Positions 13,298 to 23,949 of a stretch of DNA of 24,020 nt are shown here, one piece after another. Source of the stretch: Thraustochytrium sp. TN22 (taxonomy: Eukaryota; Sar; Bigyra; Thraustochytrida; Thraustochytriidae); the NCBI GenBank assembly GCA_013306675.1, contig JABLUY010000379.1, positions 1 through 24,020 on the forward strand, in the 5' to 3' direction. The first letter of the stretch is position 1, and each line of letters begins with the position of its first letter. Under the pieces are notes generated by a model that was not told where the DNA came from, did not search any database, and saw nothing but the letters and a program-made list of their open reading frames with translations. The position numbers and the translations under genes were made by a program.

Positions 13298-14128
13298 TTA
13301 GGCGGAGCTGATGGACTTCTCGACGACCGGGTACCAGTCGCCAAGGCGCGAGAGGAGGTCAATGTAGGCGGCGTCGAGGTCGTCGTTGACGATCTTGACG
13401 TCGACGTTGCCGGGCTCGTCGAGCCAGGCCATCTCCTCGCGCGCGTTGTGCAGGCGCTGCAGGAGATCCTCCTCGGTCTCGGTGCCGCGCGCGCGCAGGC
13501 GCTGCTCGAGGATCTCAAAGGAGGGCGGTGCGATGTAGACGCAAAAGGGGTTGAGCGAGGTGGCGCGCACCTTGCGCACGCCCTGGATGTCGATCTCGAG
13601 GATGCAGATCTTGCCCTTGGCGGCGACATCGCGCACGGCCTGCTCGGAGGTGCCGTAAATGTTGCCGTGCACGTTGGCGTGCTCAATGAACTCGCCGCGC
13701 GCGATGCGCTCCTGCATGGACTCGTGGTCGGTGAAGTGGTAGTGCACGCCGTCCTCCTCGCCTTCGCGCGGCTGGCGCGTGGTGTGGCTCACGCAGAGGC
13801 CGAAGACGTCGCTGTGGTCACGGAAGAGGCGCTTGACCAGCGTGCCCTTGCCGACGCCCGAGGGCCCGCACAGGATGAGCGGGCGCGCCTCGCCGTCGCG
13901 CGGCAGCAGCGTCGCGAAGTAGTCGCACGCGAACGCGCAGATGTTCTGCGGCTTCATGAGCAGCACCTGGCTCAGGAAGTCGCTCATGATGTGCTTGAGC
14001 TCCGGGTGCTCCTCCACGTACTTGACGTGCTCCTCCTTGAGCAGGTCCTTGCGCGAGTTCAGCTCGCTCGCCTGCTGGAAGCTCAGCCCGGCGCTGCCGC
14101 CGCTGGCCGCGCTGCGCGCGCTGTTCAT
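13298..14128 (-). CDS. GUK1: Guanylate kinase with N-terminal RIIa/Dpy-30-type docking domain
   Basis: The 276-residue product catalyses ATP + GMP to ADP + GDP. ATG 14128 is the only in-frame ATG before the conserved region; the frame is open upstream but has no ATG. Residues about 30-74 (KYVEEHPELKHIM, then KPQNICAFACDYF) form a helix pair typical of the RIIa/Dpy-30 dimerisation and docking fold. The kinase follows: P-loop GPSGVGKGT at 88-96, GMP-binding SHTTRQPREGE at 114-124, GEFIEHANVHGNIYGTS at 145-161, ILEIDIQGV at 177-184, and the lid/adenine region PPSFEILEQRLRARGTE at 201-217. All key motifs are intact, so the enzyme should be active. RIIa domains often anchor enzymes to AKAP-like scaffolds such as the radial spoke, so a flagellar role is a reasonable inference given the nearby dynein gene. 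It is longer than the usual roughly 200-residue enzyme because of the extra domain. Confidence 0.95.
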   Translation of the reverse strand: MNSARSAASGGSAGLSFQQASELNSRKDLLKEEHVKYVEEHPELKHIMSDFLSQVLLMKPQNICAFACDYFATLLPRDGEARPLILCGPSGVGKGTLVKRLFRDHSDVFGLCVSHTTRQPREGEEDGVHYHFTDHESMQERIARGEFIEHANVHGNIYGTSEQAVRDVAAKGKICILEIDIQGVRKVRATSLNPFCVYIAPPSFEILEQRLRARGTETEEDLLQRLHNAREEMAWLDEPGNVDVKIVNDDLDAAYIDLLSRLGDWYPVVEKSISSA

Positions 14129-15243
14129 CCCTGCGCGCTCCTCCTCGCGCTCGTACGCCGCCGCCACGAGCGACGCGCGCGCTTCGCCGCCGACCGCCGC
14201 TCCAGCCAGCCAGCCAGCCGGCCACTCAGCGGGCGCGGGCGCGGGCGCGGGCGCGGCCGGGCGGGCGGGCGGGCGCGCTGCCGTCGTGGCCGCCTCCTCG
14301 AGCGCGCTCCGGGTCTGCCGCGCCGCCGCGCGCGCGCGCGCTGAGGAGTCGGCGCCGCACGCGGCCCGCGCGGGACCGTGCCCCCGCGAGGCAGCGCCGG
14401 GGGGCACCGGGCGAGTCGGGGCCGCCCTTGCGCCGCGCCGCGCAACTGCGCGCGGGTCCGTTAACCCACTTGCGCGCGCGGGGGGCCCACTTGCGGCGCG
14501 TCGTGGCCGCCGTCACCACCGGCCGGGGCGCGTGCGCGCGCGGCGTGTGCATGTTGGGCGAGGAGGAGGTCACGGTGGAGCGGGGCGCGTGCGAGGCGAG
14601 GCGCAGGACGCGGGGTTGTGGACTGGCCGTGCAGGAGAGCGACCTCGTGCGGCGGCTGGAGACGGCCTCGTGCGGCTGGAGAGCCCCTGGAGTCTGCTGC
14701 GCGAGGTGGCTTTCGTTGCGAGGTTTTGTCAAGGTGACTTCTGCGTGACGCAGCCTTGTGTGAGCGTCAGAAGCTGGCAGGACTCGGACGACTAAGACGC
14801 GACGTCCGAGCAGGCAGTCCATCAGGATGGTGCCGTCGTATAAAGCTAATTTACATCAAGGTAGTTCGTGGTAACAATACAGCTAGCTACCAGCAGCAGG
14901 CGCGTCGGAGGGCTCGCATTCCTGCTGGCTGGTTGTTGTCGTTGGTGATGGCAGCCCAGCAGAGGCTCGCCGCCTCCGTCGCCAGCGCTTGAACGTTCGT
15001 CTTGTAGCGCAGCCCTCTTCGTTCATCGTCGGCCCGAGGCGCTCATGGCGGGCTTCGCTCCTCGCGCTGTCCTTAAAAGCGAGGCCTCGTGCTCATACGT
15101 CGGCAGCGCTTTGCCTGCCTGCGCGAGTTGAACTTGCCCGCTCGAGTTCGAGTTGACGTGGAAGGCAGGCGACCTCGACTCGGACCTTGACGTCGGCGAC
15201 CTCGCCGCCGCAGACTCGTAGCTCGCGCGAGAGGCGGCAGCGC

Positions 15244-17317: not shown

Positions 17318-18553
17318 TCATAGCGACCCTCGCACGTCATGCATGGAAGCCGGCGTTGATGAGGCTGCCGAGGATCGTGCGACGGCGCGCTGCTCGCAGG
17401 CACCCGTCTCCCGCGCGCGCTCCGGACTGTAGCTCTCGGGCGTCTCCGGGACCTCCGTGCGGGCCCCGTCCCCGTCATGCGGACAACTTGAGGACGACGA
17501 GACGGACACTGAAATGCCCAGCTGACCAGCCACGTCCGCCGTGCTAGCTGCTCCTGTTACGCTCCCTGCGCTCATGCCCGATGCGCTCATGCCCGATGCG
17601 CTCATGCCCGATGCGCTCGTGCCCGATGCGCTCATGCCCGACGCGCTCACGCTCGACTGCGCGCTCGTAGGGCCGGGGCACACACAGGGCTGCGGCGGCT
17701 GCGGCGGCTGCGGCGGCCGGCTCGGGCACAGGCATTCGGCGAGCTCGGCGGCCCGCGCCTTGGCGCCGGCATCGCCGCTGCCGCAGTCCTGGTCGCCGTC
17801 GTTGCTGTTCAGTTTTCGCTTCTTGTTGCAGACCCACATGGCCACCTTGTGCTCGGCGGCCGAGAGGCCAAGGTCCGCAATGAAGGTGCGCATAGGCTCG
17901 TCCGAGACGTCCTCGAAGACGCTGGTCTTGGGCACCGGGAGCTGGCGGCCGATCTTGCCGGTGACGCGCCAGACCTGGAGCAGCATGCGCGCGCGCGGCG
18001 GGACCTCCGGGTCGGCGATATCGATGATGCCGTCGATCTGTTTGCCACACTGCGAGTTTTCCAGCACGATCTTGCAGACGACGAGGGCCTTGAGCAGGCC
18101 GGTCTGCGCGGCGAGCTGGCACGGCGTCCGGCCCTCGCAGTCGCGCGCGTCGAGGCGGGCGCCAGCCTCGATGAGCAGCAGCGTCGCCACCTTGTGGCCG
18201 TGCTCCATGGCGCCGTGCAGCGCGGTCTTGCCCTTGGTGGACACCACGTTCACATTGGACCCGCGCTCGATCAGCATGTTCACGATGGAGTCGAAGCCGC
18301 CCTTGGCCGCGTAGAAGAGCGGCGTGTGCCCGACGCAGTCCAGCGCGTCCAGTTCCGCGTGGTGCTTGATGAGCAGGCTCGCCACCTCGTGGTGCCCGTA
18401 CCTGCACGCCTCGTGCAGCGCCGTCGACTTGTACATGTTGTCCTGGCAGCTCACCGGCGCGCCCTCCTTGAGCAGCTGCACGCACTCCTCCTTGCGCCCA
18501 TTGTGCGCCGCCGACCGCAGCTTGCAGCACAGGTCCGAGCCCGTGTTGCCCAT
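17318..18553 (-). CDS. Ankyrin-repeat protein with predicted N-myristoyl/palmitoyl anchor
   Basis: The 411-residue product starts at ATG 18553, the only in-frame ATG before the conserved part. The N-terminus MGNTGSDLCC fits an N-myristoylation site (Gly2, Ser6) followed by a Cys pair (9-10) for palmitoylation, predicting membrane or flagellar-membrane anchoring. Ankyrin repeats run from about 11 to 160, with recognisable ALHEACRYGH, TPLFYAAKGG, TALHGAMEHGH and TPCQLAAQTG helices. The middle (about 160-270) is not recognised. The C-terminal third is low complexity: Pro/Gln PPQPPQPPQP, a SASGM repeat at about 300-330, and a Ser run. The partner is unknown. No catalytic domain is visible; it is most likely a scaffold. 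Intronless. Confidence 0.85.
   Translation of the reverse strand: MGNTGSDLCCKLRSAAHNGRKEECVQLLKEGAPVSCQDNMYKSTALHEACRYGHHEVASLLIKHHAELDALDCVGHTPLFYAAKGGFDSIVNMLIERGSNVNVVSTKGKTALHGAMEHGHKVATLLLIEAGARLDARDCEGRTPCQLAAQTGLLKALVVCKIVLENSQCGKQIDGIIDIADPEVPPRARMLLQVWRVTGKIGRQLPVPKTSVFEDVSDEPMRTFIADLGLSAAEHKVAMWVCNKKRKLNSNDGDQDCGSGDAGAKARAAELAECLCPSRPPQPPQPPQPCVCPGPTSAQSSVSASGMSASGTSASGMSASGMSASGMSAGSVTGAASTADVAGQLGISVSVSSSSSCPHDGDGARTEVPETPESYSPERARETGACEQRAVARSSAASSTPASMHDVRGSL
17566..17655 (-). repeat. 15-bp coding minisatellite (SASGM repeat)
   Basis: Six 15-bp units of ATGCGCTCATGCCCG (+ strand) run from 17566 to 17655; the four inner units differ by at most one base and the end units are more diverged. 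They encode the SASGM repeat in the C-terminal tail of the ankyrin protein. Unit length is a multiple of three, so copy-number change keeps the frame. Confidence 0.9.
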
Positions 18554-20101
18554 GCTCCCGCGGCCGCTGCCGCGCACGCAGGCGCCCCGCGCGTTTTGAA
18601 CGTGGATTCAAATTCAAACTCGCCCAATCGTCCTCGCAGGGCGCCGGGCCGCCGCGGCTCGGCTCGGCTCGCGCGCGCCTCGCCTCGCCGCTCGCGCCCG
18701 CGCCCGCGCCCGCGCCGCCGCTCGCGCTCTCTGCCGCCGCCGCGCGCGCCCGCGCGGAGGCCGCGGCGGAGAAGGAGGACTAGCGCCGCCGCGCCTCTGT
18801 CGCGCTTCCCTTGTTCCTCGGCGCCGCCTTACGCGCCGCCTGCTCGCGCCGCGGCCGCGCCGCGCCGCGCCTGCTCGCCGCCGCCGCGCGCCGCCTTAAC
18901 CCGGCGGCCACCGGGATGCCCCGGTCGGCCCAAGCGGCGGCGGCGCGCCGCGGCGGGACTCGCACGAGGGGACGAAGAACCCGGAGACCTCGGAGGACTC
19001 GGAGGACTCGAGGCGCCGGCGGGCGGCGAGCTGCGAGCTCGCTCCCGAGGATGGAGCTGCTGAGCGCGAGCCGACGCAGAGCATGGAGTGGACGAGGATC
19101 GAGCTCAGGCTGCCGAGGATCGAGGCGAGTTCGTGGCGGCGAGGACCTGCACTCGACGACGGGGAGGATGTCGACGTTGAGCAGCGTGGCCGACGACGAA
19201 AGACGTGCGGCGGAATTGGGAGGAGGGGTCGACGATGCAGTGCGGGCTGCGCGAAGCGACTGCGCGAAGCGAGGCGCCGCGAGGCCTGGCATCGGCCGAG
19301 GGCAGGTTCGCTGGACGGGATGAAGAATGGAAGCTGGGCTCCGGCCAGTGGCCAGCGGTACTTGTTGGCTGCTGAAGTGCGGGATCGGAGCGGCTCGTGG
19401 GCCGCCACGAGAGACGAGGCCAGCCAGCGAGTAGACAAGATGGAGGTCCGAACAAGGAACTTGATGAGCCTGGGCGACGACTTTCGAAGTTTCGATTCAA
19501 GGGTTGCTCTGTCCAGGTCGAGCCGTACCGAGCGCCGCGCGGTGCGGCGAAGGGATGAAGGTTCGAGTGTGAGAGCGTGCGCGATCGCGCTTGAGAGCGT
19601 GCGCGATCGCGCTTGCGCTCTTGCGCTCTTGCGCTCTTGCGCTGTGACGCTCTTGCGCTGTGACGCTCTTGCGCTCTTGCGCTCTTGCGCTCTGACGCTC
19701 TTGCGCTTTGACGCTCTTGCGCGCTCTGACGCTCTTGCGCTCTTGCGCTCTGTGCGCATGCACTTTGGAGGTGTTCTCGCACGCTTTCGCGAACGTTGGT
19801 TGGTACCTTCACCACCACCACCACCACGAACCTGAACCAGCAAGACAGCAAAGCACTTGTAAACAGGACTTTGTTTCTCGAATTAGCATGCATAGCATGC
19901 ATAGCGAGCATCGCGCGGTGTGGCGCGGCAGAGAGCTCGTGGCGGTCGGACGCAGCGGACGTCTCGAGCAAGAAGCTCGAGATCAGCTTTCGACCACGCG
20001 TCGTCATCAGGTGCGAGACAAGCCTGCTAAGAGAGGTCCGGCCCGGGCTATCGGAGTAGCCCAAGGCATTCTTCTACAGCACTGGTCGATTGAGACCTTC
20101 A
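18554..20101. other. Repeat-rich 1.5-kb intergenic region, no convincing gene
   Basis: It contains the promoter of the ankyrin gene on its left and the 3' flank of the first four-TM gene on its right. Several long frames are open here on both strands but their products are Arg/Ala/Ser low complexity or direct translations of the GCGCTCTT repeat, with no domain-like pattern. A 9-bp tandem AGCATGCAT occurs near 19884-19903 and a CCA run at about 19811-19827. The start of the region (18601-18780) is very C-rich. Confidence 0.55.
19571..19757. repeat. Degenerate GCGCTCTT minisatellite and 22-bp tandem pair
   Basis: Two identical 22-bp units beginning GAGAGCGTGCGCGATCGCGC lie at 19571-19592 and 19593-19614. 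They run into about 140 bp of 8- and 9-bp units of the type TTGCGCTC and TGACGCTC up to about 19757. The mixture of two unit variants suggests repeated slippage. It lies beyond the 3' end of the first four-TM gene. Confidence 0.85.
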
Positions 20102-20584
20102 TTAGAAGCGATGGATGGCCGGAAGGAGATTCATACAGAGCACACTGTTGAAGAGCGGGGTGATGACCCAGACCACGCCTTCCAGCACCTCAAGCACGAC
20201 GCGCACGGACAAGAACCCGGTGACCTGCGCGTAGAGCAGCGCAGCCACCACGCAGCCGGTGAGCACGGACATGAAGTGCTGGACGACCTGGGCCCGCTTC
20301 TGCGTGGCAAACTCGCGATACTCGTCCGGTATCTTGCGAAAGCCGGACGAGTCCGGGTCGTAAAGCCCACGCAGAACCAACACTCAGTCGTAGTTGAAGC
20401 CGGACGAGAACAGCAGCGCTCCCGACAGCACCAGCTGCACGAAGCGCCCGAAGCCCGCCCACGCTTCGGCGCCGCGGCCCTGGGCGCCAAAGTACGTGAC
20501 CGCCGCGCCGCCCATGATGGCCACGCCCGCCGCCATGCGCCGGTACGCCTGCCGCGGGTGGATGAGCCGCATCTCGCGCCCCAT
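20102..20584 (-). CDS. Four-TM protein, copy 1, interrupted by an in-frame TGA (readthrough, recoding or early pseudogene)
   Basis: ATG 20584 (context AGCATGG) opens a frame reading MGREMRLIHPRQAYRRM. After 66 codons it meets TGA at 20384-20386, then continues in the same frame for 93 codons to TAA at 20102. The two halves align without a gap to the paralog at 21560-22146. Copy 1 reads FNYD-stop-VLVLRGLYDPD where copy 2 reads FEYDSIMVIRNIYNPD, so TGA stands exactly where copy 2 has Ser (TCC). Conservation continues past the stop (PDEYREF versus PEEYREF). Predicted TM segments are about 18-33, 47-63, 105-125 and 136-153. There is no intron at the position where copy 2 has one. The family was not recognised. 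It may be a pseudogene, a sequencing error (TCA or TGG to TGA), or genuine recoding; the sequence alone does not decide. A 66-residue two-TM product is the default if the stop is real. Confidence 0.75.
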
Positions 20585-21559: not shown

Positions 21560-22146
21560 TCAGATCCTGTAGAGCGGGACGAGTTTGAGGTTGTTCATGT
21601 TGGAAAAGGTGACGGCCAGCATCCAAGCAGCGTTGTCAATGACGCGAAAGAATGCTCGCTTCGTCAAACCCTCGTCAGAGAGGTGCGCCTGGAGCATCCA
21701 GAAGAGAGACGTGAGCACGACGACTTTGATGTAGTGTCGGAGAACCTTGGTTCGCTTCATAGCCTCGAACTCCCTGTATTCCTCCGGCACGATACGGTAG
21801 CCAAGACCGTCCGGATTGTAGATGTTCCGGATCACCATGATGGAGTCGTACCTGAGAGAGAGAGAGAGAGCGCGGGCGCCTGAGTTAGTCTCTGGCTCGC
21901 ATGAAAGGCGCGCCGACTCTGCACAGCAACGTACTCGAAGCCTGACCAAAAGAGCACCGCCTGCATCGAGATCATGAACATGAACTGCTCGTACGAGATG
22001 GTCTCGAGCTCCACAACGGAGTACAGGTACGTGGACAGGCACATGAGGGAGGCGCCCAAGGCCATGCGCCTGTATGCCTTGTGCGGCAGGCCGAGCGTGT
22101 AGCTGCGCAGCGACGCCGCCGCCCTCACCATCTTGTCCTTGCCCAT
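21560..22146 (-). CDS. Four-TM protein, copy 2 (two exons), unrecognised family
   Basis: Exon 1 is 22146-21935 and exon 2 is 21851-21560 on the minus strand; together they give 504 nt and a 167-residue product. Splicing joins TTCGA to GTACGACTCC and restores the reading through FEYDSIM, which is gap-free against copy 1. Start ATG 22146 reads MGKDKMVRAAASLRSY. Predicted TM segments are about 28-47, 54-72, 111-128 and 138-158. A charged loop between TM2 and TM3 holds the best-conserved part, NPDGLGYRIVPEEYREF, where copy 1 has DPDSSGFRKIPDEYREF. No signal peptide is obvious. I do not recognise the family and assign no function. The two copies are in tandem, same orientation, about 1 kb apart. 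Confidence 0.85.
21852..21934 (-). other. 83-bp spliceosomal intron in four-TM copy 2
   Basis: On the minus strand the intron begins GTACGTTGC and ends in a (CT)8 pyrimidine tract followed by CAG. Donor and acceptor follow the GT-AG rule. It is supported by the restored frame and by alignment with the intronless copy 1. It is the only intron I can support in this window. Confidence 0.9.
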
Positions 22147-22766: not shown

Positions 22767-23949
22767 TCACCACAAGACCTCATCGAGGTTGTCGGGACGC
22801 AGAATGCGGGAGCGCTCGCGCTCGCGCGCCTGGCGCGCCGAGGCCACGGTGGTGACGGCCGCCGGGGGCTCGGGCCCACGCGTGAGCGTGCGCAGGGGCG
22901 AGCTCTGTGGCCTGACGCGCAGGCGAGGGACGACCTCGGGGCGAACAAAGGCCGCAAAGGGCGCCGCGGCGAGGCCGCCGTCCTGAGCCGCGGCGAGGTC
23001 TACGGCCGCCCAGGCCTGGCACGTGCAACGCGGCGCGGTGGCGCCCGCAAAGGCAAAGATGCGGGCGAGCGCAGCCTCTGGCATGCGCTGCAGCGCGCGA
23101 GAAGCCGGGACCGCGGCCGCGGCCGCGGCGCCGCGCGAGGCCGCCTCCATGACGGCGCGCGTGGCGGCGTCGGCGGCCTGGTCAAAGGCCGCATCGCCAA
23201 AGCGGTCCGCAGCTTGCGGGTCGGCGCCGAAGGCGATGAGCGCGCGCGCGACGCGCGCGAACCCCTTGCGCGCCGCGTAAAAGAGCGCAGACTCGCCAAA
23301 GTCCGTCTTGCAGTGCACATCGGCGCCTGCCGCGAGCAGAGCTTCCACAACCTGCGCGTGGCCGGCGTAGGCCGCAAGGTGCAGCGCGGACTCATGCTCC
23401 GCGTTGCAGGCGTCCACCAAGGCGCCACGCGCGATGCACAGACGCACGACTTCCAGATGGCCGCGGCGCGCCGCCGCGTGCAGCGGCGTCTCGCCGTTTG
23501 CATCGCGGCAGCCGATCAGGTGAGCGTGTCGCCGCAGCGCGGCGCGCACGCGACGTGCGTCACCAGACTCCACGGCACGCAGCACCGCGTCTTGCGGGCC
23601 CTCCTGCAGCCTCCGCAGCGTCTCGCTCGCGTCGGCGGCCAGAACCCTTCCCTTCTCTAGCTCCTGCTCCTGCTGCTCCTGCTCTTCCGCGCCATTGTTG
23701 CCTGCGCCGCGCAGCGCCTTGGCCAGCTCGGCCGCCTCGCAGGCCGCCTCGCGTCTGCGCCTGTGCACGAAGATGGCGCACTTGCGGTCCGCGCGGTCGG
23801 GCGATACGAGCGCGAGCAGCTCGTCTCGCAGGCGCAGCGGGTGCGCCGCGGCGTCCTCCGCCGCCGCCGCCGACGTCGTCGCCGCCCTCGTGCGCGCGCT
23901 CGCCGGCCGCCGCGCCGCCACCGAGAAGTTGCGCCCGGCCGCCACGCGC

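Follow-up and report, generated by a model that had tools for sequence, protein, structure and literature searches.

We analyzed a 24,020-base contig (hereafter the window), taken whole from a eukaryotic assembly of 37.9 Mb in 453 contigs, and found a minus-strand gene (positions 20102-20584) whose in-frame TGA is best explained as a selenocysteine (Sec) codon, a reading to which we give a probability of about 0.93. The gene is predicted to encode a small membrane selenoprotein of 160 amino acids, with four predicted helices and a single Sec at residue 67 (U67), for which UGA would be decoded with the help of a Sec insertion sequence (SECIS) hairpin and translation would end at a downstream TAA. 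This prediction draws on translation, paralog alignment, codon usage and a low-confidence structure model. Selenocysteine had been one among several options listed in an earlier note on this DNA, and it is now supported by a SECIS hairpin 94 nt past the stop, by Sec-decoding machinery in the genome and by other genes recognizable as selenoproteins.

Coding signal on both sides of the TGA

Translation bore out the earlier description of the frame: it runs from the ATG at 20584 on the minus strand to a TGA at 20386-20384, and beyond this another 93 codons are free of stops up to the TAA at 20104-20102. The TGA is the only one in the 160-residue frame before the TAA. The open run is weak evidence by itself, because 93-codon openness is commonplace in this GC-rich window (10,407 of 23,741 minus-strand offsets). 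Base composition and codon usage were more specific to the frame. In the tail past the TGA, GC content at codon positions 1/2/3 was 0.66/0.35/0.84, compared to 0.64/0.61/0.56 over the initial 600 nt of 3' flank. The codon-usage log-likelihood of the tail was +16.1 in frame; the two remaining forward frames scored -55.6 and -65.5, and the three reverse-strand frames -0.2, -9.8 and -100.7.

The tail is also conserved in a tandem paralog, copy 2, which lies on the same strand and consists of exon 1 (21935-22146), an 83-nt GT-AG intron (21852-21934) and exon 2 (21560-21851), with a spliced product ending at a TGA that acts as its true stop. Using BLASTP, the read-through product matched copy 2 along most of its length (31% identity, 46 of 147 columns; E = 8e-28), and the post-TGA tail alone gave E = 2.7e-12. 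Codon alignment placed the TGA opposite a Ser codon (TCC) of copy 2, in agreement with the earlier note. That note had also described conservation past the stop as equal to that before it. The two copies agree in residue at 23 of the 62 codons aligned upstream of the TGA and at 28 of the 92 downstream, and pN is nearly equal on the two sides (0.43 and 0.46, respectively). The claim of a gap-free alignment held around the TGA but not elsewhere, with gaps of 11 residues near the N-terminus and 4 between helices 1 and 2, a further one near residue 124 and one near the C-terminus. No paralogs other than this tandem pair were found in the genome.

The intron of copy 2 lies a few codons upstream of the Ser aligned to the TGA, and the Sec copy has no intron there. 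An intron excising the TGA from the Sec copy was considered and rejected, because conserved residues are continuous across both sides and leave it no space. Based on homology, codon usage and the SECIS hairpin, the 93 codons past the TGA are clearly coding.

A SECIS hairpin in the predicted 3' untranslated region

A search of the minus-strand 3' flank for a SECIS, which had been proposed earlier, turned up a hairpin in the predicted 3' untranslated region, with a core (19945-20007, minus strand) that starts 94 nt past the TAA. The core is composed of ATGAC, a 12-nt helix II, an AAAGC apical bulge, a mini-stem (TCTCGAGC/GCTCGAGA) and the 3' quartet CGAC, and is preceded by TG (TGATGAC from 20009). 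A SECIS core has a UGAN/NGAN quartet, a helix of 12-13 nt and an unpaired AA, and hairpins from three control genes of the same genome (described below) agree with this pattern. The candidate has the quartet, the helix length and the unpaired AA. The hairpin was first spotted by eye and the scanner was written afterwards from the general SECIS definition, so its criteria were not blind to the candidate.

With this scanner, the candidate was the only strong SECIS-like match on both strands of the window (-27.6 kcal/mol); one other match fell below -12 (-17.7, plus strand), with a multi-branched fold. When the 1,001-nt flank was shuffled with dinucleotides preserved, 0 of 4,000 shuffles reached the candidate's energy and regularity together. 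Strict criteria, applied on both strands to 273,878 bases from overlapping fetched loci, returned the candidate and the three controls only, and the isolated core does adopt the SECIS fold (-28.7 kcal/mol). In MAFFT alignments of the hairpins, the helices were out of register. Beyond the hairpin, 3' of it on the minus strand, the window contains a run of short repeats of the GAGCGCAA / GAGCGTCA type (19580-19760, by eye).

Control selenoprotein genes and decoding machinery

A search of the genome for the glutathione peroxidase family gave four matches, of which L008 and L009 carry an in-frame TGA, L007 a TAG (at an apparent exon end) and L006 no stop. The TGA of L008 occurs at NVASK-U-GLT, the catalytic site of glutathione peroxidase, where the neighboring L007 reads QCGLT; the L009 site reads NVATT-U-GTT. 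L008 and L007 stand in tandem (G000:C43, 76.8-79.2 kb) and form a within-genome Sec/Cys pair of glutathione peroxidases. Of two matches to Rdx, one (L011) contains a TGA; it reads FCTS-U, a motif by which we take it to be SelT-like. We used L008, L009 and L011 as controls; their TGA sites are positions where selenoproteins have Sec.

The same scanner identified SECIS hairpins 89 to 128 nt past the stops of all three controls. Together with the candidate, these hairpins share traits outside the scanner criteria: the TGA is preceded by TG and A and followed by A or C, the AAA is followed by GC, and the 3' GA by C. No such hairpin was found in the 974 nt past the stop of the Ser paralog or in the 800 nt past the stop of the Cys-type glutathione peroxidase L007.

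Genome-wide, the half-motif TGATGAM-N11..13-AAAGC, which was written with all four hairpins known but which the three controls share without the candidate, had 29 matches in 37.9 Mb, compared to 6 for a reversed control. Five of the 29 fold as SECIS, namely the three controls, the candidate gene and a gene encoding a regulator of G-protein signaling (RGS) domain (L028, described below), and all five are located 82-128 nt past the stop of a TGA-bearing gene. The other 24 did not form this fold even under relaxed energy and pairing limits.

We searched the genome for four components of the Sec machinery and found a match for each: tRNA-Sec (anticodon tca, 73.9 bits), SepSecS (E = 2.6e-114), an eEFSec domain (E = 1.4e-18) and selenophosphate synthetase (selD, E = 2.9e-80). 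A second, sub-threshold tRNA-Sec match was a tRNA-Ser according to ARAGORN. Selenophosphate synthetase (39679-40629) and tRNA-Sec (63416-63501) occur on the same contig (G000:C23), ~23 kb apart. Light-harvesting proteins (PF00504) had no match in the genome, so the organism is probably no typical alga.

Given these components, the UGA at 20386-20384 would be decoded as Sec: the SECIS hairpin (20007-19945) would recruit tRNA-Sec and eEFSec, and translation would terminate at the TAA. In the Ser paralog, whose scanned 3' flank holds no SECIS-like fold, UGA acts as an ordinary stop. Sec insertion at U67 is thus a prediction from the gene and its genome.

Alternative explanations

Several observations weigh against a Sec codon at this site. 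Among the shuffled flanks, 12 matches were as stable as the candidate, though irregular, and the strict shape appeared twice at or below -18, with one of these reaching -24 or lower and neither having an ATGA[AC] core. Looser scanner matches were also present in L006, L007, L005 (twice) and the L011 minus strand. Folding depended on the length taken: over 106 nt, forcing the base of helix II gave -38.3 compared to -39.7 for the free fold, so that an alternative fold is preferred by ~1.4 kcal/mol; over 89 nt, the free fold reached -33.1 compared to -28.7 for the core structure alone; and the free fold of 131 nt departs from the SECIS fold, with a stability that is only mildly unusual (z = -1.75; 9 of 200 shuffles at least as stable). 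Rfam reported no SECIS in the window and its SECIS_1 model none in the genome, but these nulls are uninformative because the hairpins of the control genes were likewise missed. The sole homolog found carries Ser at the site, neither Cys nor Sec; a homolog with one of these two is the customary support for a selenoprotein gene, though not strictly part of its definition. Scans of viral contigs and bacterial and archaeal genomes with short peptide patterns gave no homolog from a second species, which says little given that these collections are viral, bacterial and archaeal. Finally, pN and pS between the copies (0.43 and 0.43 before the TGA; 0.46 and 0.64 after) give a ratio that is uninformative at such divergence.

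Other explanations of the TGA fare considerably worse. A base-call error or a very recent null mutation, with a sense codon as the true or ancestral state, would fit a TGA that is one base from several sense codons and a paralog that has Ser. It would, however, need a chance SECIS of the genome's own type in the 3' untranslated region, of which ~7e-5 are expected per 1,001-nt flank (based on 5 SECIS-folding motif matches over 75.8 Mb, both strands); 0 of 4,000 shuffles matched the candidate's energy and regularity, and no such hairpin was present in the stretches scanned past copy 2 and L007. We consider this explanation very improbable, and programmed readthrough equally so. In the latter case, one of the standard residues Trp, Arg or Cys would be inserted independently of selenium and two isoforms would be made; UGA is the leakiest stop, and a truncated product of 66 amino acids with two helices could exist. 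Readthrough does not predict a SECIS, however, and other genes of the genome carry a TGA at a known Sec site together with the same hairpin. The least probable explanation, by our estimate a very small chance, is that UGA has been reassigned to an ordinary amino acid throughout the organism. Although this would account for several genes with an in-frame TGA, copy 2 and the glutathione peroxidase L008 both terminate at UGA, as does, by our reading, the RGS gene, and the in-frame TGA of L008 falls at NVASK-U-GLT, where the neighboring copy has QCGLT. Selenocysteine is favored because a null allele, a base-call error or plain readthrough would not predict the SECIS.

Predicted structure and genomic neighborhood

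The structure model of the protein contains four long helices but has low confidence (mean pLDDT 58.6). Sec is predicted to sit near the membrane border, close to the end of helix 2 (residues 39-71) and beside a conserved charged loop. An Arg-rich N-terminus suggests that the N-terminal end is on the cytosolic side, and Sec is probably on the cytosolic side as well. The Sec copy contains Cys111 and Cys150, both absent from copy 2, whose single Cys is residue 36. Because these two residues are missing in the Ser copy, our guess for the chemistry is a selenol/thiol pair: the most likely role would be redox chemistry on the surface of the membrane, for which Cys111 or Cys150 might be the partner of Sec.

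A search of the PDB by sequence, using copy 2 as the only query, gave no match. The Sec copy had no Pfam match, and no redox motif was recognized in it. Residues 91-142 of copy 2 matched PF23816 (DUF7187) weakly (E = 0.0012, 19.7 bits), below the family's curated cut-off of 27 bits.

Two ankyrin-repeat proteins on the minus strand (17318-18577 and 22767-23945) flank the pair of membrane-protein genes. Elsewhere in the window, a guanylate kinase domain is encoded at 13298-14407 (E = 1.4e-59), with a weak RIIa-like match ahead of it (E = 0.024, below the cut-off).

A second candidate with an RGS domain

The half-motif search also identified a gene for an RGS-domain membrane protein with an in-frame TGA (L028, 533-1420, plus strand; G000:C112 near 15948), which is apparently a second undescribed selenoprotein of this genome. 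Its RGS domain (E = 5.9e-14) is located ahead of a membrane part with hydrophobic helices recognized by eye, and the TGA falls at SGYQRV-U-SGLGLRGL, by eye the apparent end of a hydrophobic helix. The composition is that of coding sequence before and after the TGA: codon-position GC was 0.66/0.45/0.93 and 0.64/0.42/0.86 on the two sides, compared to 0.58/0.58/0.54 in the flank. We read the TGA before ATFTRN as its terminator. A SECIS of the same type as the candidate's starts at 1501, 82 nt past the stop; this hairpin is narrowly outside the strict criteria, with 10 paired and 2 unpaired positions rather than 11 and 1. No paralog of the membrane part was found in the genome.

In both proteins Sec is followed by LRGL (SGYQRV-U-SGLGLRGL in L028; SGFNYD-U-VLVLRGL in the four-helix protein). 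Homology between the four-helix protein and the L028 membrane part was not significant: one search gave a best local match of E = 0.63, and a second comparison gave a probability of 1.75%, and to the RGS part. In a third, the best local match leaves the two Sec sites unaligned, and in class-preserving resampling of 45-residue windows 190 of 5,000 scores were at least as high as the observed one, with the Sec sites again mismatched. We tentatively suggest, as a possibility that we consider rather unlikely, that the two genes represent lineage-specific membrane selenoproteins whose Sec lies where a membrane helix ends. One would be a free-standing four-helix protein and the other fused to an RGS domain. 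If so, G-protein signaling would receive input, through the RGS fusion, from selenol chemistry at the border of the membrane, and Sec would be placed in a fold and a pathway for which we have not found it described. Among the papers listed, none combined 'RGS domain' with selenoprotein, selenocysteine and 'SECIS element'.

Discussion

The four-helix gene resembles eukaryotic selenoprotein genes with an AAA-type SECIS and a mini-stem, represented in this genome by the glutathione peroxidases and the SelT-like gene, in its UGA, motif, spacing and machinery. Glutathione peroxidases and SelT-like proteins are of thioredoxin-like fold and carry known redox motifs. In contrast to these control selenoproteins, the protein described here is a predicted four-helix membrane protein with neither a Pfam match nor a recognized redox motif.

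A published family of similar kind is MSP, a membrane selenoprotein which is described from Dictyostelium, Chlamydomonas, Volvox and Ostreococcus (an amoeba and green algae only) and is said to have two Sec residues (PMC2375036). Both are predicted membrane selenoproteins, but MSP as described is set apart by its two Sec residues compared to one in the four-helix protein. The same paper mentions three hypothetical Ostreococcus selenoproteins besides MSP (PMC2375036). A survey of 137 algae reported 42 selenoprotein families, of which three were new and are described as having thioredoxin-like, AhpC or Trx-like domains; the abbreviations that appear there include MSP and a 'Hypo' class (PMC7539508). 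For known selenoprotein families, the same survey describes homologs whose residue is neither Sec nor Cys (PMC7539508). No four-helix selenoprotein was found in the literature searched, as represented by titles and the openings of abstracts. The protein may be identical with a published hypothetical selenoprotein family. The recoding mechanism is a known one, while the protein family is apparently new.

New eukaryotic selenoprotein families are few. The gene illustrates how ordinary reading of the frame halves a selenoprotein. A helical membrane protein with one Sec close to a helix end, next to a tandem Ser paralog that has no SECIS-like fold, is a natural pair for testing what Sec contributes, and the same Sec/Ser pair bears on how genes gain or lose a SECIS.
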